A stretch of DNA of 64,000 nucleotides from the NCBI GenBank assembly GCA_947453335.1, contig CANGFP010000001.1, positions 248,001 to 312,000 on the forward strand, given 5' to 3'. Under the pieces are notes generated by a model, which saw nothing but the letters and a program-made list of their open reading frames with translations, was not told where the DNA came from and ran no database searches. Made by a program: the position numbers and the translations under genes. The DNA comes from Opitutia bacterium (GTDB taxonomy: Bacteria > Verrucomicrobiota > Verrucomicrobiia > Opitutales > UBA953). Positions 3,294-43,459 of this stretch are shown one piece after another. Numbering within the stretch: position 1 is the first letter of the stretch; each line of letters begins with the position of its first letter.

Positions 3294-4878
3294 ACGCCTT
3301 CTTCCCGTTCAGCAAGGCGCCCAACCAGGTGCGCCGCACGAGGTAGTGGTCGGCGAGCAGCAGCGTGCCGAGGGTGAGTCCGCAGATGAGGCCGCATTTG
3401 ACGACGGGCCAGAGTCGCCAGCCGGCCATGAGCCACTGCAGGGCGACGACAAGCGGCAGGTGCAGCAGGTAGACCCAGAGCGAGGCGTCGGCTAGTCGCC
3501 GCACCACGGCGACGGGGCGCGCAAGGTGCCAGGTGAAGAGGTCCATCAGGGTGAAGGTCATGCCCCATGCGAAGGCCGCCTGCAGCATGCAGCCGAAGAG
3601 GTGGGCGACGGGATGGTCCCAGTTGCTCAGGCCGAAGGCGATCGGGAGCACGAGGAAGGTGAGGAACGGGAGCTGGATCCAGGCCAACCAAGGCAGGCGC
3701 GCGGGCTCGTTGCCGCGGAGGCGGAGGGCGGCGCCGAAGGCGAAGAAGAGCCCGTAGGTGACGATCGCCGCCGGTTTCTCCGCCAGCGACATCTCGCCGG
3801 CGATGCCGAAGCCCGTCTCCGCCGTCGACCACCAGAAGAGCAGCGTGGTCGCGGGCAGCAGCCAGAGCAGGCGCGTCCATTCCGCGAGCATCCAGCGCGG
3901 CGGCGCCGGGAGGTCGAGGCGTTCGTCCAGCCATGCCCACGCGCCGAAGGCCAACGTGAGGAGGATGAGCACCCACATGAACCACAGATGGCCGAGGAGC
4001 GGTTGGTGCAGGAGCGCCGCCAGGCGCAGGCCGCCGGTCCGTTTCCCCGGATCCAGCAGGCGCGCCGCCTCGGCGCGGCCTTGCGCTTCGTCCGGCCCGG
4101 GCGTCACGCCGAGGATGCGCGCGATCCGCTGGTGCTCGAGCTCGTCCCGCGCGGTCAGGTCCGCGGCCGTCTGCCCGGCTTCGTTCTGCGCCGCCAAGAG
4201 CTCTGCCTTCCAGGCATGGCCGCCCGCGCCCTCGAGGATCAGCGCGACGGCCGCCGGCTGGCCGAAGCGCGCGGCGGCGTGCAGCGCGTTCTCGCCGTGC
4301 AGGCGCGCCAGCAGCGTGTCGGCCGGGCGGTCGTCGTTCCGCCTGAGCAGGGTCTTGAGCGCCTCGGTCCGCCCCAGCGCGGCCGCGAGGTACTGGGCGT
4401 TGCCGAGCTCCGGGTCGTCGGGCGCGGTTTTCTTCAGTTCGGCGATGTCGTCGCGCCGGACGGCCTGGTGGATGGGCTCGTTCAGCTGGGCGTTCGGGAC
4501 GCCGCGGACCGCCATGCTCCGGCGGGCTTGGCCTTCGATCCACATCGTGAAGGGCAGCACGGTCGCCACGCCCAGCAGGAAGGGCGCGACGAGCCGCCGG
4601 AGGCGCCGCCGCAGCATCCCGCCGGCGCCCGCGCGCCGCAGGACCATCGCGGTGAAGTAGCCGGCGAGGACGAAGAAGAGCTCCATGCGCCAGCCATGGA
4701 TGAAGGCCCAGGCGAAGGTGAGCAGGAAGCTCTCGCTGCGGTCCTGCACGGGCCAACGCGTCGGGCCCAGGTAGGCCAGGCAGGCGTGCAGCACGACGCC
4801 GAGCAGCATCGCGCAGCCTCGCAGCGCGTCGAAATCGTGCCGGCGTTCGTCCGGCAGGGGCGGGGGAGACTTCGTCAC
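3292..4878 (-). CDS. acyltransferase-3 family membrane protein with inserted ankyrin-like repeats
   Basis: DALRGCAMLLGVVLHACLAY and C-terminal TM segments typical of acyltransferase family 3; middle section GENALHAAARFGQPAAVALILEGAGG resembles an ankyrin repeat. Confidence 0.8.
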   Translation of the reverse strand: MTKSPPPLPDERRHDFDALRGCAMLLGVVLHACLAYLGPTRWPVQDRSESFLLTFAWAFIHGWRMELFFVLAGYFTAMVLRRAGAGGMLRRRLRRLVAPFLLGVATVLPFTMWIEGQARRSMAVRGVPNAQLNEPIHQAVRRDDIAELKKTAPDDPELGNAQYLAAALGRTEALKTLLRRNDDRPADTLLARLHGENALHAAARFGQPAAVALILEGAGGHAWKAELLAAQNEAGQTAADLTARDELEHQRIARILGVTPGPDEAQGRAEAARLLDPGKRTGGLRLAALLHQPLLGHLWFMWVLILLTLAFGAWAWLDERLDLPAPPRWMLAEWTRLLWLLPATTLLFWWSTAETGFGIAGEMSLAEKPAAIVTYGLFFAFGAALRLRGNEPARLPWLAWIQLPFLTFLVLPIAFGLSNWDHPVAHLFGCMLQAAFAWGMTFTLMDLFTWHLARPVAVVRRLADASLWVYLLHLPLVVALQWLMAGWRLWPVVKCGLICGLTLGTLLLADHYLVRRTWLGALLNGKKA

Positions 4879-5788: not shown

Positions 5789-6781
5789 ATGTCCGAGCCG
5801 CTCCAGACCCTCCGCGAAAGCAAAGCCCTCCCCGTCGGTTCCCGCTTCCAGGCCATCTGCTCCATGGGAGAGGTGTCCGCCAAGACGGCCAAGACCGGCA
5901 CGACCTACCATGAGGTGACGCTCGCCGACGCGACCGACGACTTCAAGGCGCGCGTCTTCAGCGATTCCCCGAACAAGCCCATCCTTCTCGCGCTCAAGCC
6001 GGGCTCCATCCTCCGCGTCACCGGCCTGGTCGGCGAATACATGGGCCGACCTGACCTGAAGCTCGAGTCGCTCGCCGCTCTGACCGACGCCGAGAAGTCC
6101 GATCCGGCCGTCATGGGTCGTCTGACGCCGGTCTCCCAGCAGGACCCTGTGAAGATGCGCGCCGAGCTCGCGGCCATCATCGCCCGTATCCCGCACGAGG
6201 GCCTGCGCGCCACCGTGGAATCGGTCCTCGAGGAGCACGGTGAGCGCTTCTACGAGGCCGTCGCCGCCCTCGGCATGCACCATGCCTACCGCCATGGCCT
6301 CCTGGAGCACACCCTGCGCATGGCGAAGTGCGCCGAGGCCCTGCTTCCGCTCTACCAGAAGGTCGACCCGTCCCTCGCCGTCGCCGGCACCATCCTGCAC
6401 GACCTCGGCAAGGTCCAGGAGTACTCCCGCCTCGAACCCGGCATGGCCAAGGCCGGCTTCACGCGCGCGGGCAACCTCCACGGCCACCTCGTCCTCGGCG
6501 CCTTCATCGTGCGCGCCCACGGCACCAAGGTCGGGCTGGAGGCTTCGCTCCTCGAGCGCCTGGAGCACATCCTGCTCTCCCACCACACGTTGCGCGAATA
6601 CGGCGCGGCCGCGATCCCGTCGACCCCCGAGGCCGTCTTCGTGGCCCGCATCGACGACCTCGACGCCAAGCTGTCGGCGATCGAGGAGGAGCTCCGCAAG
6701 GCGCCTCCGGGCGTGGAGTTCACGCAGCTGCGCGCCATCGACGGCCAGCTCCTCATCACGCCGCCCAAGACGGGTCGCTGA
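5789..6781 (+). CDS. 3'-5' exoribonuclease YhaM-family protein (OB-fold plus HD domain)
   Basis: N-terminal OB-like TYHEVTLADATDDFKARVFS; HD domain HHAYRHGLLEHTLRMAKCAEAL...VAGTILHDLGKVQEY. Confidence 0.88.
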   Translation: MSEPLQTLRESKALPVGSRFQAICSMGEVSAKTAKTGTTYHEVTLADATDDFKARVFSDSPNKPILLALKPGSILRVTGLVGEYMGRPDLKLESLAALTDAEKSDPAVMGRLTPVSQQDPVKMRAELAAIIARIPHEGLRATVESVLEEHGERFYEAVAALGMHHAYRHGLLEHTLRMAKCAEALLPLYQKVDPSLAVAGTILHDLGKVQEYSRLEPGMAKAGFTRAGNLHGHLVLGAFIVRAHGTKVGLEASLLERLEHILLSHHTLREYGAAAIPSTPEAVFVARIDDLDAKLSAIEEELRKAPPGVEFTQLRAIDGQLLITPPKTGR

Positions 6782-6784
6782 GCG

Positions 6785-7861
6785 ATGGACGTCGCGGAGC
6801 TGGATTTCGACCTGCCTCCGGAACGCATCGCGGCCGCGCCCGCCGACCGCCGCGACGGTTCGCGTCTGCTCGTCGTCCGCCGCGCGGGCCGGACGGTCGA
6901 GCACCGCGTCTTCGCCGATCTGCCCGACCTCCTGCCCGCGGGGACGACGCTCTTCCGCAACAACGTCCGCGTCCTCAAGGCGCGCCTCGCCGGCGTCCGG
7001 CCTACTGGCGGCAAGGTCGAATGCCTCCTGCTCAACCCCGCGGGTGGTCCGCACGAATGGCGCTGCATGCTGCGTCCCGGCAAGCGCGCCGCCGACCCCG
7101 CGGGCTTCCTCGTCGACGGCCATCCCGCCGTGGTGACGCGCGTCGAAGAGGGCGGCTCCTACGTCGTGCGCTTCGCCTTGCCGCCGGGCGATTCCGTCGT
7201 CGCGCTGGCCGACCGCGTCGGCGAGCTGCCCCTGCCGCCCTACATCGTCGAGGCCCGCAAAGACCGCGGGCTCGGCCCGACCGACGACGCCGCGCGCTAC
7301 CAGACGGTCTATGCCGACGCCGGCGCGACGCGCGCCGTGGCCGCGCCGACGGCGGGGCTGCACTTCACGCCGGAGCTGCTCGCTCGGCTGCAGGCGCGCG
7401 GCCATGAGTCCTTCGACCTCGCGCTCGACGTCGGCGCCGGGACTTTCCAGCCGATCCAGGTCCAGGACCTCGCCCAGCACGTCATGCACCGCGAGACCTA
7501 CGCCATCCCGGCCCGCACCCTCGCCGCCCTCCGCGACCGCCGCCCGCGCCTCGCCGTCGGCACGACCACCATCCGTTCCGCCGAGGACTGTCTGCGCAAG
7601 TGCGGCGCTTTCGATGCGGCCCCCGCCGGCGAGTGGCGGTCCGAGTCCGGGCTGTTCCTGCGGCCCGGGGACACCATCGGCTGCGCGGAGATGCTCCTGA
7701 CGAACTTCCATCTCCCGCGGTCCACGCTGCTGTGCCTGGTCGCGGCCTTCCTGGCTCCGGGGGACGCCGGCGGCCTGGCGTGGCTGAAGGAGATCTACGC
7801 CGAGGCCATCCGCGAAAAGTACCGCTTCTTCAGCTACGGCGACGCCATGCTCATCCTCTGA
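6785..7861 (+). CDS. queA: S-adenosylmethionine:tRNA ribosyltransferase-isomerase
   Basis: [58 protein letters not shown] are QueA signatures. Confidence 0.97.
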
Positions 7862-7910: not shown

Positions 7911-8645
7911 ATGTCCAAGCTGCACGATGAACTCAAGGTCCGCCTGAACGGCTGGGATTGGTTCGTCTTCGTCGTCGCCTTGGGCGCGCTGCTCCTGGTG
8001 CTGGTCGAGACCTTCCTGAGCTTCAGCGCGCCGACGATGGTGGTCTTCCGGTGGATCGACAACACCGCCTGCGGCGTCTTCTTCGTCGACGTCATGGTGC
8101 GTTGGCGCCGCACGGGCTGGTCCGCCGAGTTCTGGCGCTGGGGCTGGGTGGACCTTCTGGCCGCGATCCCCTTCGACGCCGCCTTCCGCACGCTCCAGAT
8201 CATCCGCGTCTACCGCATCATCCGCGTCCTGCGCGTCCTCTACAAGCTGCAGGAGCTCACCACCGGCACGAGCCTGAACGAACGCCTGCTCGCCCTGCCC
8301 GGCATGGCCGTCGTGATGATCATCTTCAGCACGGCGCTGATGGTCGAGGCCGAGCGGCACGCCGTCGGGGCCACCATCAAGAGCGGTGGCGACGCGCTCT
8401 GGTGGGCGCTCACCACGGTGACAACCGTCGGCTACGGCGACATGTACCCCGTGACCACCGAAGGCCGCATCATCGCCGCCGGCCTCATGCTCGTCGGCAT
8501 CGCCCTCTTCGGCTCCATCTCGGCCATCGTCACCTCTAAGCTCATCCTTCCCAAGGAGACCAAGGACCACGAGGAGCTCCGCCGCGAGATCCGTTCCCTG
8601 CACGCCGACATCCGCGACCTCCGCGAGGAGCTGCGGAAGAAGTAG
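7911..8645 (+). CDS. voltage-gated K+ channel-like ion transporter
   Basis: selectivity filter TTVTTVGYGDMYPVT, preceding basic S4-like helix IIRVYRIIRVLRVLYKL, C-terminal coiled coil. Confidence 0.93.
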   Translation: MSKLHDELKVRLNGWDWFVFVVALGALLLVLVETFLSFSAPTMVVFRWIDNTACGVFFVDVMVRWRRTGWSAEFWRWGWVDLLAAIPFDAAFRTLQIIRVYRIIRVLRVLYKLQELTTGTSLNERLLALPGMAVVMIIFSTALMVEAERHAVGATIKSGGDALWWALTTVTTVGYGDMYPVTTEGRIIAAGLMLVGIALFGSISAIVTSKLILPKETKDHEELRREIRSLHADIRDLREELRKK

Positions 8646-16153: not shown

Positions 16154-17065
16154 TTACTTCACCCCGGCCTTGGCGATGAGCGCGGCGAGCTGTTCGGCCT
16201 CGGCGGGCTTGAGGTCGGTCAGCGGGGCGCGGACGGGGCCGGCGCCGTGGCCGACGATCGTCGCGCCGGCCTTGATGATGCTCACGGCGTAGCCCGCGCT
16301 CTTGTTGCGGATCTCGAGGTAGGGCAGGAAGAAGGCGTCGAGCAGGCGGTTCTGCGTCGCGACGTCGTCCGCCGCGATGGCGCGGTAGAACTCCATCGCG
16401 GTGCCCGGGATGAAGTTGAAGACGGCCGATGAGTAGACCGGCACGCCCATGGCCTTGTAGGCCGCGGCGTAGACCTCCGCCGTGGGCAGGCCGCCGAGGT
16501 AGCTGAAGCGGTCGCCGAGGCGGCGGCGGATGGACACCATGAGCTCGATGTCGCCGAAGCCGTCCTTGTAGCCGATGAGGTTCGGGTTGGCGGCGGCGAG
16601 CTTCTCGAGGTGGTGCGGCTGCAGGCGGCAGACGTTGCGGTTGTAGACGACCACGCCGATCTTCACGGACTTGCAGACCTGGTCGACGTGCGCGGCGACG
16701 CCGTCCTGGTTGGTCTCGGTGAGGTAGTGCGGGAGGAGCAGGATGCCCTTGGCGCCGAGGCGTTCGGCTTCCTGCGCGTATTGGATGGCCACGCGGGTCG
16801 GGCCGCCGGCGCCGGCGAGGATGGGCACCACTCCGGCGCAGGTGTCGACCGCGGTCTTGATCACCGCGGAGTATTCCTTGGGCTCGAGCGAGAAGAACTC
16901 GCCCGTCCCGCCCGCGGCGAAGAGCGCCGTGGCGCCGTAAGGCGAGAGCCAGCGCAGCCGGCGGGCGTAGCCGGCGGGATCGAAGTCGCCGTTCGCCTGG
17001 AAGTCGGTGATCGGGAAGGAGAGCAGGCCGGAGGACATCACCTGCTTGAGTTCTTGGGGGGACAT
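16154..17065 (-). CDS. kdgD: 5-dehydro-4-deoxyglucarate dehydratase
   Basis: [70 protein letters not shown] (DHDPS/NAL family). Confidence 0.93.
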
Positions 17066-17259: not shown

Positions 17260-17280
17260 GTGTCAACTGGTCCCCTAGTC

Positions 17281-17301
17281 GGACAGCCCGTGGCGCTGTC
17301 C
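17281..17301. repeat. 9-3-9 hairpin element
   Basis: GGACAGCCC-GTG-GCGCTGTCC (8/9 arm pairing). Confidence 0.75.
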
Positions 17302-17353
17302 CGACCTCGACGCCTTCCTCGACTTCGCCTGGGCGCCTGCTTCACTCCTTTCC

Positions 17354-18952: not shown

Positions 18953-21499
18953 ATGAAGGCCCACGCCACCACCTGTCTCGCCGTCGGCTGCCTCTTGGCC
19001 GCCTCCTCCGCGCTCGCCCTCAACAAGGGCAACGCCGGCCCCGAGGAGGTCACGCTCAAGTTCCGGCTCCCGCCGCCCCCCGTGCTCACGCCCGAGGAGG
19101 AACTTAAGACCTTCCAGGTCGAGAAGGGCTTCCGCGTCGAGCTCGTCGCGTGCGAGCCGATGGTCCAGTCCCCCGTCGCCATCAGCTTCGACGACCAAGG
19201 ACGGATGTTCGTCGTCGAGATGCGCGGCTACATGCAGGACGTCGAGGGCGCCGGGGAGAAGGAACCCAACGGCCGCGTTTCGCTGCTCGAGGACACCAAG
19301 GGCACGGGGCGCATGGACAAGGCCACCGCGTTCGTCGACGGGCTCGTCATGCCCCGTTCGGTGCTGGCGGTCAACGGCGGCGCGCTCGTCGCGGAACCCC
19401 CGAACCTCTATTTCTGCAAGGACACCAAGGGCACCGGCGTCGCCGATGTGCGCACCCTCGTGGCGACCGACTTCGGCACGCGCGGCGGGCAGCCGGAGCA
19501 CACCGCCAACACGCCGATCTGGGCCTTGGACAACCGCGTCTGGAGCGCCGGCTACGGCACCAGCTTCCGCCTCGTGGGCGGCGCCTGGCAGCGCGGCGCC
19601 GGCCTGGGGCGCGGGCAGTATGGCCTCTGCCAGGACGACGCCGGCCGCCTCTACTACAACTACAACTCCGACCTCCTCCGCGCCGACCTGCTGCCGGCCG
19701 CGGCCTTCGCCCGCAATCCGCTGCTGCGCAACCTCACCAGCGTGAACAGCCGCGTCGTCGCGGACCAGTCGGTGTTCCCGATCCATCCGACGCCCGGCGT
19801 GAACCGCGGCTACGACGCGACCACGCTGCGCGCGGACGGCACCTTGACCAAGGTCACCGCCACCTGCAGCCCGTTGGTCTACCGCGGCGACCTCTTCGGA
19901 CCCGCCTACGTCGGCAACGCCTTCATCCCTGAGCCTGCGGGCAACCTCGTGAAGCGCATCGTGCTGACCGAGCACGCGGGCGTCGTCGCCGGCGCGGCCG
20001 CCGTCCCCGGCAAGGAGTTCCTCGCCTCGACGGACGAACGCTTCCGTCCGGTGCAGGTGGTCAACGGTCCCGATGGCGCGGTCTACGTCGTCGACATGTA
20101 CCGCGGCATCATCCAGCACCAGAGCTTCCTGACCCACTACCTCGTCGCGAACATCAAGGACCGCAAGCTGGAGCAGCCGGTGAACCGCGGCCGTATCTGG
20201 CGCATCGTTCCCGACAAGGCCGCGAAGGTCGCCCCGGTCAAGGTGCCGGCCGCGACGATGGCGCGCGTCGAACTCCTCCGTCATCCTTCGGGCTGGGTCC
20301 GCGACACCGCGCAACGCCTGCTCGTCGAAGCGGCGGACGCCGCGGCCGTTCCGGCCGTCCGCAAACTGCTGGCCGATCCGGCGACGCCCGCCGTGGGCAG
20401 GCTCCATGCGCTGTGGACCCTTGAGGGCCTGAACGCGCTCGATGCGGAGACGCTCCGCCGGGAGCTCAAGGACGCCGACACGCAGGTGCGCGCCGCCGCC
20501 GTCCGTCTCGCCACGCCCGACATGCTTCCGGAACTCGCCGCCATGGGAGCCGAGAAGGAGGCGCTCGTGCAGGCCCATCTCGCCATCCGCCTCGGGGCGA
20601 TCGGTTCTCCCGACGCCGACTCGGCCTTGGCGAAGCTGCTCATCGCCCATGGCCAGGACCTGCTCGTGCGCGAAGGCGCCTTGACGGGCATGCGCGGCAA
20701 GGAGACGGCCATCGCCAAGCTCGTCGCGAAGCAGGCCGACGTCCCGGGGGCGGCTTTCGTCGTGGAAGCCTTGGCCACGCTCGTCTCGCAGGCCGGCAAG
20801 GCCGGCCCGATGGAGGAGATGCTCAACCTGGCGGCCGGACTCGACGACAGGTCGATGCGTACCGCCGTCGTCCGCGGCTTGGACCGCGGCGGCCGTGAGG
20901 CGAAAGGCAAGGCGGGGAAGGCCGCCGCCGCGAAGGTGACGAAGCTGCTGTGGCTGCCGGCCGAGCCGGCGGCGATGGCGAAGCTGCAGGCGCAGCTGAC
21001 CGACAAGGATGGCGCCGCCGCCCTCGCCGGGCTCAACGAACGCGTGGTCTGGGCGGGTAAGCCCGGCGCGCCCAAGCCTCCGGTGGTCACGCCCCTCAAC
21101 CCCGCGCAGCTCGCCGCCTACGAGCGCGGGAAAGGCATCTTCAACGGCCTCTGCGCCGCCTGCCACCAGCCTCACGGCTACGGCCTCGATGGCCTCGCGC
21201 CGCCGCTCGTCGACAGCGAGTGGGTCACGGGCAAGCCCGATGTCCTCGCCCGTATCGTGATGAACGGCCTCGGTGGTCCGGTGAAGGTCGCCGGCCGCAC
21301 CTGGGACCTGACCATGCCGCCGATGGCCCAGCTGAACGACGACGACCTCGCCGCGGTGCTGACGTACGTCCGCCGCGAGTGGGAGCACACCGCTTCGCCG
21401 GTCGACGCCAAGTTCGTCAAGGGCCTGCGCGACCAGTACGCCACGCATCCTTCCTGGACCGCCGACGAACTGAAGCCTGCCGCGCCCGCGAAGAAGTAG
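18953..21499 (+). CDS. PVC-type membrane-bound dehydrogenase/HEAT/cytochrome c protein
   Basis: VISFDDQGRMFVVEMRGYMQD-type beta-propeller, HEAT-like middle, C-terminal GLCAACHQPHGYG heme-binding site. Confidence 0.9.
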   Translation: MKAHATTCLAVGCLLAASSALALNKGNAGPEEVTLKFRLPPPPVLTPEEELKTFQVEKGFRVELVACEPMVQSPVAISFDDQGRMFVVEMRGYMQDVEGAGEKEPNGRVSLLEDTKGTGRMDKATAFVDGLVMPRSVLAVNGGALVAEPPNLYFCKDTKGTGVADVRTLVATDFGTRGGQPEHTANTPIWALDNRVWSAGYGTSFRLVGGAWQRGAGLGRGQYGLCQDDAGRLYYNYNSDLLRADLLPAAAFARNPLLRNLTSVNSRVVADQSVFPIHPTPGVNRGYDATTLRADGTLTKVTATCSPLVYRGDLFGPAYVGNAFIPEPAGNLVKRIVLTEHAGVVAGAAAVPGKEFLASTDERFRPVQVVNGPDGAVYVVDMYRGIIQHQSFLTHYLVANIKDRKLEQPVNRGRIWRIVPDKAAKVAPVKVPAATMARVELLRHPSGWVRDTAQRLLVEAADAAAVPAVRKLLADPATPAVGRLHALWTLEGLNALDAETLRRELKDADTQVRAAAVRLATPDMLPELAAMGAEKEALVQAHLAIRLGAIGSPDADSALAKLLIAHGQDLLVREGALTGMRGKETAIAKLVAKQADVPGAAFVVEALATLVSQAGKAGPMEEMLNLAAGLDDRSMRTAVVRGLDRGGREAKGKAGKAAAAKVTKLLWLPAEPAAMAKLQAQLTDKDGAAALAGLNERVVWAGKPGAPKPPVVTPLNPAQLAAYERGKGIFNGLCAACHQPHGYGLDGLAPPLVDSEWVTGKPDVLARIVMNGLGGPVKVAGRTWDLTMPPMAQLNDDDLAAVLTYVRREWEHTASPVDAKFVKGLRDQYATHPSWTADELKPAAPAKK

Positions 21500-21520
21500 G
21501 CGCGGCCTACGGCCGCGAGG
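21497..21520 (+). repeat. hairpin embedding the stop codon of the upstream CDS
   Basis: TAG-GCGCGGCC-TAC-GGCCGCGAGG; TAG is the stop of the cytochrome c gene. Confidence 0.8.
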
Positions 21521-21583: not shown

Positions 21584-21609
21584 GGTAGGGTCGGGACGGC
21601 GTCACGACC
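21584..21609 (+). repeat. 26-bp hairpin element GGTAGGGTCGGGACGGCGTCACGACC
   Basis: exact inverted copy at 30210-30235. Confidence 0.95.
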
Positions 21610-28935: not shown

Positions 28936-28980
28936 GGGTTGAGGGTTGAGGGTTGGGGGTTGTGGGTTGAGGGGTGCGGG
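28936..28980 (+). repeat. (GGGTTGA)n telomere-like array
   Basis: GGGTTGAGGGTTGAGGGTTGGGGGTTGTGGGTTGAGGGGTGCGGG. Confidence 0.92.
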
Positions 28981-29084
28981 AAGTGCGGCGGCAGCGCCGC
29001 CCCACTCCTCGACTCCGCCCTCGACGCTTCCCTCGACTCAGCACTCTGCTTGCTCTTCCTCGGCGGGCTGTACACAGTGCCCGC

Positions 29085-30050
29085 ATGCGATTCACCCCGA
29101 TTGCCAGTCTTCTCCTTGCCGCCGCCTTCGCCGAGGCGGCTCCTGCCGTGGCCCTCAAGCCCGTGGACGGCGCCGTCGAGGTGCAGTTCGACGGCAAGAC
29201 CGTGGCTGCTTACCTGACCGCCAACGACGTCTCCACCCCGACCCGCGCGAACGAGACCTATAAGCCTTATCTCCGGGTCGTCGACCCGACCAACGGCCAA
29301 GCCATCACCAAGGGCCCAGGCGGCACCTACACCCACCACCGTGGCATCTTCTTCGGCTGGATGCGCGTCGGCCTCGAGCAGCAGAGGCTCGACCTTTGGT
29401 CTATGGGTTCGGGTCGGCAGGTCCACACTGGTTTCAAGGAGCAGTCGGCCAAGGATGGCTCGGCCAAGCTCGTTTCGCTCATCAACTGGAACGACAAGAA
29501 GGGCCAGCTGATCATTTCGGAGGAGCGCACGATGGTCCTCAGCCAGCCGGAGGCCCCTGGTTTCCTGCGCGTCGACTTCCTCACCACCGTCAAGGCCGAG
29601 GCCGGTGACCTGCAGCTCGAGGCCGACCCTGAGCACGGCGGCGTGCATTACCGCGCCCCGCAGGAAGTGGACGCCAGCAAGACCGAATACTTCTTCCCCG
29701 TCGCGAAGCCCCTGCCGCACAAGGATGTCGACTACCCGTGGGTCGGCATGAACTACACCCTCGGCGAAAAGAGCTATGGCGTCGTCGAGATCGACCACCC
29801 GGCCAATCCCCGCGGCACCAAGTGGTCGGCTTACCGCGACTACGCGCGCTTCGGCGCCTACCCGCACGCCACGCTGAAGAAGGGCGAGACCCTGTCGCTC
29901 AAGTACCGCTTCCTCGTCTCCCAAGGGGCCGTCGTGTCGACGGACGTCATCCAGTCCGAGCAGGCCACCTTCACGGGCGCGAAGCCCGAAGCCGTCACCG
30001 TCACCAAGCTCAAGGCCGAGGTCACGGCGCCGCCGAAGGCTAAGAAGTAA
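29085..30050 (+). CDS. DUF6807 (PmoA-like) family secreted protein
   Basis: TKGPGGTYTHHRGIFFGWMRVG; start MRFTPIASLLLAAAFAEAA. Confidence 0.82.
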   Translation: MRFTPIASLLLAAAFAEAAPAVALKPVDGAVEVQFDGKTVAAYLTANDVSTPTRANETYKPYLRVVDPTNGQAITKGPGGTYTHHRGIFFGWMRVGLEQQRLDLWSMGSGRQVHTGFKEQSAKDGSAKLVSLINWNDKKGQLIISEERTMVLSQPEAPGFLRVDFLTTVKAEAGDLQLEADPEHGGVHYRAPQEVDASKTEYFFPVAKPLPHKDVDYPWVGMNYTLGEKSYGVVEIDHPANPRGTKWSAYRDYARFGAYPHATLKKGETLSLKYRFLVSQGAVVSTDVIQSEQATFTGAKPEAVTVTKLKAEVTAPPKAKK

Positions 30051-30052
30051 GC

Positions 30053-30331
30053 GGTAGGGACAGCACCACGTGCTGTCCTAGCCTTTCGTAAGGTAGGGAC
30101 GCGACTGCGTCGCGTCCGTTGACCATTGTTTTAAGGTAGGGGCACGATTCATCGTGCCCTCAGAGAGAAGGAGGGCGCGGCGAAGCCACGCCCCTACCCG
30201 ATGCAGGACGGTCGTGACGCCGTCCCGACCCTACCCAAGGAGGAAGGACAGCACGTGGTGCTGTCCCTGCCCGCCGCGCTGACCGCAACCCTCACCCCAC
30301 GACCCGCAACCCTCGCGAGCTTCGCTCGCGC
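30053..30331. repeat. cluster of seven hairpins, most with 9-bp arms, 2-3 nt loops and a GGTAG flank
   Basis: e.g. GGACAGCAC-CAC-GTGCTGTCC (30058-30078), GGACGCGAC-TGC-GTCGCGTCC (30097-30117), GGGCACGAT-TC-ATCGTGCCC (30140-30159), GGTCGTGAC-GCC-GTCCCGACC (30210-30230), GGACAGCAC-GTG-GTGCTGTCC (30246-30266). Confidence 0.92.
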
Positions 30332-30658
30332 CTACTCCGCGAAGCCGTAGTCCTGGAGCATGCGGGCGACGGCTTGCGGGAGCGGCGGGCGCAGGTTGGT
30401 CGCGACGTTCCGGTAACCTTCGTGCGTGCAGGTGAGGTAGCCGAGCTTGCGTTGGGCGTCGGCGGTCCGACCGTGGGCTTCGAGCCAGCGTTGCAGCACG
30501 GCGGCGGCGCGCGCCCATTCGGGCCAATCTTGCTCGGCTTGGTCGGCGGTCTCCACGAGCAGGCAAAGCGCGCAGCCCTCGCCCAGGAAGCGTTCCACCG
30601 CGTCCGCGTCGTCCGCGCCAACGATGGACACGAGCTTCTCGCGTTCGCGCGCGTCCAT
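30332..30658 (-). CDS. hypothetical protein, likely cotranscribed with metH
   Basis: 108 aa MDAREREKLVSIVGADDADAVERFLGEGCALCLLVET..., begins 2 bp after the metH stop. Confidence 0.65.
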   Translation of the reverse strand: MDAREREKLVSIVGADDADAVERFLGEGCALCLLVETADQAEQDWPEWARAAAVLQRWLEAHGRTADAQRKLGYLTCTHEGYRNVATNLRPPLPQAVARMLQDYGFAE

Positions 30659-30660
30659 CT

Positions 30661-34353
<3,693 letters not shown>

Positions 34354-34413
34354 CGACCTTACCGTGCGGTTCCCCGGCCTCGGGTCAAGGCACGGTCGGG
34401 TCATCGGGCCCGT

Positions 34414-42007: not shown

Positions 42008-43390
42008 GTGCCGACTGCCTCTGCAGCCGTTCCGTCCGGTTTGGACGCCCTCGATGCCGCCGATCGGCGCTTCGGGTGGCACCCGTTTACCCAAATGCGG
42101 GAATACCAGGACAACCCGCGGCTCCACTTGGTGCGGGGCGAGGGTTCTTGGCTGATCGACGGGGAAGGGAAGCGCTACCTGGACGGCAACGCTTCGGTCT
42201 GGACCAACGTCCATGGCCATAACGACCCCGACCTGAACCGCGCGCTACAGGAGCAGTTGGGTCAAGTCGCTCACGTGACGTTGCTGGGCCTGAACCACCC
42301 GGTGGCCACCGGGCTCGCCGAGGACCTCGCGACGCTGACCAACGGGGCGCTGCCCCGTTGCTTCTTCTCCGACAACGGCAGCAACGCCGTCGAGGTGGCG
42401 CTGAAGTTGTCCTTCCAGTATTGGCAGCTCGTCGGGCAGGAAGCCAAGCGCGGCGTCATCGCGATGGATGGCGCCTACCACGGCGACACCTTCGGCACGA
42501 TGTCCGTCGGTGGTCGTTCGGAGTTCCATGATCGCTTCGCGCCGTGGCTCTTCGCCGCGCAGACCTTCCCGGCGCCGGATCACTCGGAGTGCGCCGGTCA
42601 GACCGCCCGCTCCGACGCCTCCGCCTCCTTGGCCGCACTTGAGGCCCTCTTGGTCCGCGACGCCGCCACGACCGCCTGCGTCATCCTGGAGCCGCGCGTG
42701 CAGGGTGCGGCCGGGATGGTCCAGCAGCCCGCGGGTTTCGTGAAGTCCGTCGCCGCGCTGTGCCGGAAGCACGGCGTACACCTTATTCTGGATGAAGTGT
42801 TCACCGGCTTCGGCCGCGTCGGTGCCCTCACGGTCGCCGAGCTGGAAGGCGTCGTGCCCGATTTCCTCTGCCTCGCGAAGGGTCTCGCCGCCGGTTACCT
42901 CCCTCTCGCCGCCACGCTGACGTCGGAGTCGATCTACGAGGCCTTTCTCGGGAAGTTCTCCGAAGGGAAGACCTTCTTCCACGGCCACACCTTCTCCGGC
43001 AACCCGCTCGGTTGCGCCGTCGCGCGCGCTTCGTTGCGCAAGCTCCGCCCGATGCTCGCCTCGGGCCAGGTCGCCGAGCGGGCCGAGCTCCTGGGGCGCG
43101 AGATGGCGGCCGCCTTCGCAGGCCATCCCAACGTACGGACCTTCCGTCAGCTCGGACTCACCGGCTCCGTCGAGTTCAAGCCCGTCAACGCCGACCGCTG
43201 GCCCACCGACGTGCGCGCCGGCTACCGCGTCGCGCTCGCCGCGCGCCGCCACGGCCTCGTCATCCGTCCCCTCGGCGACTCCATCCTGTTCGTCCCGCCC
43301 ATCTCCATCCGCCCCGACGAAGTAAAGCACCTCGTCCGCGCCGTCCGCCTCGCGATGGACGAAACCCTCCCGACTCTGAACGCAGACTAG
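42008..43390 (+). CDS. bioA: adenosylmethionine--8-amino-7-oxononanoate transaminase (GTG start)
   Basis: HPFTQMREY, VHGHNDPDLNRAL, MDGAYHGDTFGTMSVGG, LILDEVFTGFGRVG, CLAKGLAAGYLPLAATL. Confidence 0.97.
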   Translation: MPTASAAVPSGLDALDAADRRFGWHPFTQMREYQDNPRLHLVRGEGSWLIDGEGKRYLDGNASVWTNVHGHNDPDLNRALQEQLGQVAHVTLLGLNHPVATGLAEDLATLTNGALPRCFFSDNGSNAVEVALKLSFQYWQLVGQEAKRGVIAMDGAYHGDTFGTMSVGGRSEFHDRFAPWLFAAQTFPAPDHSECAGQTARSDASASLAALEALLVRDAATTACVILEPRVQGAAGMVQQPAGFVKSVAALCRKHGVHLILDEVFTGFGRVGALTVAELEGVVPDFLCLAKGLAAGYLPLAATLTSESIYEAFLGKFSEGKTFFHGHTFSGNPLGCAVARASLRKLRPMLASGQVAERAELLGREMAAAFAGHPNVRTFRQLGLTGSVEFKPVNADRWPTDVRAGYRVALAARRHGLVIRPLGDSILFVPPISIRPDEVKHLVRAVRLAMDETLPTLNAD

Positions 43391-43459
43391 GGCAGCACGC
43401 GGTGCTGCCCCTGCCTTTACCCATCCCCCATCCCCCATCCCCTTTCACCTATCCCCTTC
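43388..43459 (+). repeat. 9-3-9 hairpin sharing the bioA stop codon, followed by a CCCCCATC array
   Basis: TAG-GGCAGCAC-GCG-GTGCTGCCC then CCATCCCCCATCCCCCATCCCCTTTCACCTATCCCC, ending 7 bp before the bioB ATG. Confidence 0.9.

Follow-up and report, generated by a model that had tools for sequence, protein, structure and literature searches.

REPs of the GTAG superfamily, in the available portions of Di Nocera et al. 2013 (PMC3733652), comprise several families in Opitutus terrae (Verrucomicrobiota) and prefer unlike partners, a preference without obvious explanation. Excerpts of Nunvar et al. 2010 (PMC2817692) describe RAYT genes, flanked by inverted REPs, that co-evolve with these REPs, whose stems change in complementary fashion, and the accessible text of Nunvar et al. 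2013 (PMC3686654) adds that REP abundance depends on the cognate RAYT and that REPs may remain without one. Biochemically, TnpAREP is reported in the sections seen of Corneloup et al. 2021 (PMC8266576) to cleave REP DNA in vitro at CT or, in Marinomonas, at CA. The way in which RAYTs recognise REPs and disperse them is still not well understood. Here we examine a window (the whole 64-kb stretch of DNA analysed) with a dense array of six hairpins, which we interpret, at a probability of roughly 93%, as GTAG-type REPs of several related families, that is, non-autonomous mobile DNA linked to RAYTs.

The array (30053-30271) fills most of the 281-bp gap between two convergent genes (stops at 30050 and 30332), and its six hairpins follow one design, a GGTAG or GGCAG tag with a 9-bp stem and a 2-3 nt loop, with h1-h3 in forward (+++) and then h4-h6 in reverse (---) orientation (Table 1). 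The tag is unpaired and sits at one end of the palindrome, reading GGTAG in h1-h5 and GGCAG in h6; the loop has 2 nt in h3 and 3 nt in the other five, the h4 stem carries one T-G wobble and that of h5 one G-A mismatch (stem position 6), and the stem and loop common to h1 and h6 make these two a 27-nt inverted repeat. A preliminary description had listed 9-bp stems with at most one mismatch, 2-3 nt loops and five GGTAG plus one GGCAG tags, all of which check out in sequence and coordinates; its count of seven hairpins of one architecture reduces to six, the seventh (7 bp) being unrelated. The window holds two further REP copies outside the array (21584 and 43415) and perhaps a decayed one, a weak covariance-model match on the minus strand at 17276-17308 (22.5 bits, E 3.2e-4).

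Table 1 Hairpins and neighbouring genes in the window, by position
Feature	Position	Strand	Composition	Remarks
Isolated class A REP	21584-21609	+		TGCCT immediately upstream of tag
Left neighbour, DUF6807 gene	28974-30050	+		2 nt between its stop and h1; coordinates of the listed ORF, the true start being perhaps further in
h1 REP	30053-30078	+	GGTAG + GGACAGCAC-CAC-GTGCTGTCC	Stem and loop as in REPs flanking clade-3 RAYTs (L100, L103)
h2 REP	30092-30117	+	GGTAG + GGACGCGAC-TGC-GTCGCGTCC	1 base off REPs flanking RAYT of L134 (clade 8)
h3 REP	30135-30159	+	GGTAG + GGGCACGAT-TC-ATCGTGCCC	Outer 8 bp as in REPs flanking clade-6 RAYTs (L156); other loop
h4 REP	30173-30198	-	GGTAG + GGGCGTGGC-TTC-GCCGCGCCC	Identical to REPs flanking RAYT of L171 (clade 5); TGCAT immediately upstream of tag
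h5 REP, class A	30210-30235	-	GGTAG + GGTCGGGAC-GGC-GTCACGACC, G-A mismatch	Commonest class in own genome
h6 REP	30246-30271	-	GGCAG + GGACAGCAC-CAC-GTGCTGTCC	Stem and loop as h1
Seventh hairpin	30314-30330	-	CGCGAGC-TTC-GCTCGCG	7-bp stem; directly past stop codon (30332-30334) of minus-strand ORF
Right neighbour, conserved ORF of ~108 aa	30332-30658	-		In 42/55 genus genomes; downstream of metH (30661-34404)
Isolated REP	43390-43415	-	GGCAG + GGGCAGCAC-CGC-GTGCTGCCC	At matching site, in two relatives and missing from three

The seventh hairpin gives no match to the REP covariance model and is not a member of the REP family. Its assignment to a class of post-stop hairpins was tried and dropped, such hairpins following 11 of 285 ORFs versus 4 in a shifted control, with REPs among the 11. 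As separate observations, GC-rich hairpins right after stop codons, often followed by GGG(G) and with no T run, occur in the window (21499-21520, 30314-30340) and in relatives (L229, L231, L233, L245), and G-rich short tandem runs of the GGGTTGN and GGGGATG types often share intergenic gaps with REPs (window 30281-30312; L001 2795-2960; L040 14657-14731). Searches against Rfam returned no family at gathering score anywhere in the window, and the ORF to the right of the array has no Pfam match. At two REPs (window 43388-43392; L034 near 5880) a gene's stop codon is formed by the REP tag or by bases beside the REP tail, so that REPs appear to have redefined gene ends.

A window with 70% GC could form hairpins by chance, an alternative that we regard as exceedingly improbable and that the copy number and the controls refute. 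Ten first-order Markov copies of the 64-kb window, scanned under a looser rule, gave 0-3 tag-plus-hairpin matches each, against six within 220 bp in the real sequence; folding of the array gives z-scores of -11.0 for DNA and, over a slightly longer stretch, -12.3 for RNA; and a reversed control sequence gave few matches. In an alignment of seven members (h1-h6 and the copy at 21584), 96.8% of stem cells pair, a percentage matched by none of 500 shuffles, and six of the nine pairs show double-sided changes. A covariance model built from the same seven copies recovered many further ones, whose absence would have refuted the preliminary description, with at least 75 at E<1e-4 in the own genome (1.13 Mb, 63% complete) and the family present in all 24 genomes of the host genus (Opitutae) searched. 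Across 13 other genera of the order, the same model found the family in none, although REPs with stems beyond its reach are possible there. Only 150 candidates per genome were scored, so copy counts are lower bounds, above all those near 150.

REPs cluster in two regions of the own genome, G000 (C1:108-168 kb and C3:63-136 kb; L033-L040). The GC content in several 20-kb pieces of these regions is 0.59-0.65, versus 0.67-0.70 in most sampled pieces of the genome. One piece, L040, contains a BIME-like composite block, in which a forward class A REP is followed by a spacer of ~60 nt and a reversed class B REP, five times within 13 kb (3520-3700, 4585-4765, 6779-6959, 8078-8258 and 16271-16451), and these blocks also share sequence ~25 nt upstream. 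We considered whether the regularly spaced REP pairs on contig C3 result from tandem-duplicated gene cassettes and rejected this, as the intervening genes look unrelated.

Candidate transposases for these elements come from related genomes, where short RAYTs (open frames of ~140-200 aa) carry an HxH motif and a conserved Tyr (MPDHxH and Tyr in A2), have TnpArep 4er8 as their closest solved structure (E 9.8e-15) and match the NCBIfam model REP_Tyr_transpos (NF047646) in eight of eight members, of which the first scores under the curated threshold (71.6 vs 80 bits). Such genes were found in 33 of 55 genus genomes, most of them bracketed by inverted GGTAG hairpins; the own genome, in its 63% complete assembly, yielded none at E<=1e-8. 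Evolutionarily, the hairpin stem tracks the RAYT clade (66 RAYTs, Mantel r = 0.63, p=0.0002, to which linked inheritance contributes), with identical stems in ~55% of pairs less than 30% apart and in 0-1% of pairs more than 45% apart. Among the window stems, h1/h6 and h4 agree exactly with RAYT-flanking REPs and h2 and h3 closely, and no RAYT flanked by class A (h5) hairpins was found anywhere searched. The array stems thus match several RAYT clades, and their differences reflect a mixture of families rather than compensated mutations accumulating in series at a single site. Additionally, the own genome encodes two long Y1 transposases, at L001 1300-2450 (329 aa frame) and L002 890-2010 (324 aa frame), that lie between GGGGTCAG-type inverted repeats and thereby resemble the TIR-associated tyrosine transposases in the available text of PMC3733652; at 324-329 aa and with GGGGTCAG flanks, they were not regarded as the cognate RAYTs, even though a class A REP is situated ~700 bp past the L001 gene.

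Mechanistically, by analogy with described systems, the REPs would be moved as folded single-stranded DNA by REP-associated tyrosine (HUH) transposases, the RAYTs. The RAYT would recognise tag, stem and loop, would cleave at CT or CA near a TG[CT][CA]T motif, and may join a REP next to an existing one, such that arrays would grow stepwise and build up in gaps such as those between convergent genes, where insertion probably does little harm. Since each RAYT clade is tied to its own stem, a mixed-stem array would record visits by several RAYT/REP families. The data on mobility here are differences in presence and absence between relatives at matching sites, obtained by sequence comparison, as at 43415 (Table 1); a clean empty site was not obtained, and at 21584 the flanks could not be bridged in the relatives.

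From a regulatory perspective, the array could instead be a local RNA element, a bidirectional terminator or 3'-end stabiliser in which each hairpin is kept on site for its RNA structure, as would suit its position between two convergent stop codons, its very stable RNA fold (z -12.3), two terminator-like matches versus a mean of 0.2 in shuffles, and the effects on mRNA reported for REPs elsewhere (PMC3733652, in the part available). However, both terminator-like matches are on the minus strand, their tails are weak and neither has an unbroken T run, the stems match transposase-flanking elements elsewhere, and the site after the small ORF varies among relatives: downstream of this ~108-aa ORF, three relatives (L225-L227) have what is seemingly one inherited REP with one-sided wobble changes, and others show a different array, no array or an entire RAYT unit (L240; cf. 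L106). Single copies also drift one-sidedly. In a sample of 624 REPs in 1.66 Mb of 16 genomes (picked mostly around known hits, so that densities are not genome averages, and from related genomes whose common history makes counts not fully independent), variants that have few copies and are a single step removed from a multi-copy class comprised 40 one-sided versus 18 compensated changes, as counted by a scanner that favours paired stems, and multi-copy classes within two pairs of each other differed mostly on both sides; all 48 class-A-like copies keep the unpaired G-A position identical. With compensation separating families and mostly one-sided drift in single copies, the structure is one that is copied and not maintained locus by locus. 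Thus, of the earlier proposal that structure, not sequence, is selected or copied, copying stands and selection at each locus does not, and its other refuting condition, related stems that mutate uncompensated, is partly borne out, stem change being mostly two-sided between closely related multi-copy classes and mostly one-sided in low-copy variants; on the substitutions compared, compensation distinguishes transposase-linked families rather than acting at each locus. A terminator or RNA-stabiliser role, also suggested at the outset, retains in its favour the location after genes and the two weak terminator-like matches, and we consider local selection for RNA structure very unlikely as the explanation of the array, which may still have a secondary effect on transcripts.

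For the REP/RAYT reading, the arrangement of neighbours in the 624-REP sample bears on how arrays arise. Head-to-tail neighbours (159) are about as frequent as facing ones (149), and 80 of the 159 head-to-tail pairs are spaced 34-41 nt apart, with a peak at 37. These 80 register pairs represent 72 different ordered combinations, a few of which occur in both orders, and their members are almost never alike: by within-genome permutations, 6.8 identical and 8.7 near-identical neighbours are expected, and 0 and 1 were observed. Since single-linkage clustering of stems merged most classes and left a class-level neighbour test uninformative, only exact stems and pair distances were used here. Among unique upstream flanks without a nearby REP, 27% have TG[CT][CA]T beginning 7 or 8 nt ahead of the tag, versus a background of 0.17% per position, and the motif stands there in nearly all loop classes; in the window, it precedes the h4 and 21584 REPs only. 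A universal CT cleavage site was rejected, as CT, ~3-fold enriched at -5/-4, is yet far from universal. Given that CT and CA are the cleavage dinucleotides reported for TnpAREP in the sections available of PMC8266576, TG[CT][CA]T may be a cleavage or target site.

One account of the unlike neighbours is loss, in which slippage or recombination removes one of two identical copies that lie 37 nt from each other, leaving unlike pairs, and the register comes from a preferred target site. The depletion is confined to neighbours with 0 or 1 differing stem pair, a pattern that deletion between near-perfect direct repeats would produce, and facing pairs are likewise short of identical partners (4 vs 12.0 expected). 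Loss explains the same data as self-exclusion by the transposase and is compatible with the REP/RAYT reading as a whole; we consider it reasonably probable. More tentatively, and in our judgement rather doubtfully, arrays may grow by targeted insertion of one family beside another, with RAYTs of different clades using the common TG[CT][CA]T shortly ahead of a tag and each family excluding its own kind. If such targeted stacking with self-exclusion were true, arrays would be records of successive RAYT activity, written in a ~37-nt register and in many combinations.

Set against the GTAG-superfamily REPs, as far as the available text of PMC3733652 describes them, the REPs here agree in the GTAG-type tag, in stem length (6-13 bp reported), in their short loops and in complementary stem changes at family level; they also lie after genes, belong to several families in one genome and prefer unlike partners. 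This likeness is set by description, the published superfamily counting 24 consensus families. They differ in having about as many head-to-tail as facing neighbours and in the ~37-nt register of the former. A limited search of open-access literature, in the portions available, gave PMC3733652 as the sole source on REPs in Verrucomicrobia/Opitutae and no precedent for a fixed register of unlike head-to-tail neighbours or for the common upstream motif, and the head-to-tail stacking of families at fixed spacing is unusual. Many RAYT clades within a single genus, with matching stems distinguished by compensated pairs and with mixed arrays in a fixed register, make up a natural data set from which a recognition code and an insertion rule could be derived. 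Among TnpAREP/REP systems, the window hairpins resemble the S. maltophilia REP in the accessible part of PMC8266576 (an 8-bp perfect palindrome with a 3-nt loop), whose CT/CA cleavage context fits TG[CT][CA]T, and depart from it in that class A keeps a stem mismatch and in that the systems here are known from sequence alone. BIMEs, the mosaic REP blocks, have their like in the own genome, with its composite REP blocks and conserved spacers, whereas the window array mixes several families in a head-to-tail register on each side of a centre. Finally, as in the REPtrons of Stenotrophomonas and Pseudomonas in the excerpts of PMC2817692 and PMC3686654, RAYTs lie between inverted REPs, stems are clade-specific and REPs persist without a detected RAYT. 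With its essentials thus having precedent in the available text of these sources (PMC2817692, PMC3686654, PMC3733652), the window array belongs to a known kind, here in another phylum, where one genus has several RAYT clades whose REPs are mixed within arrays.
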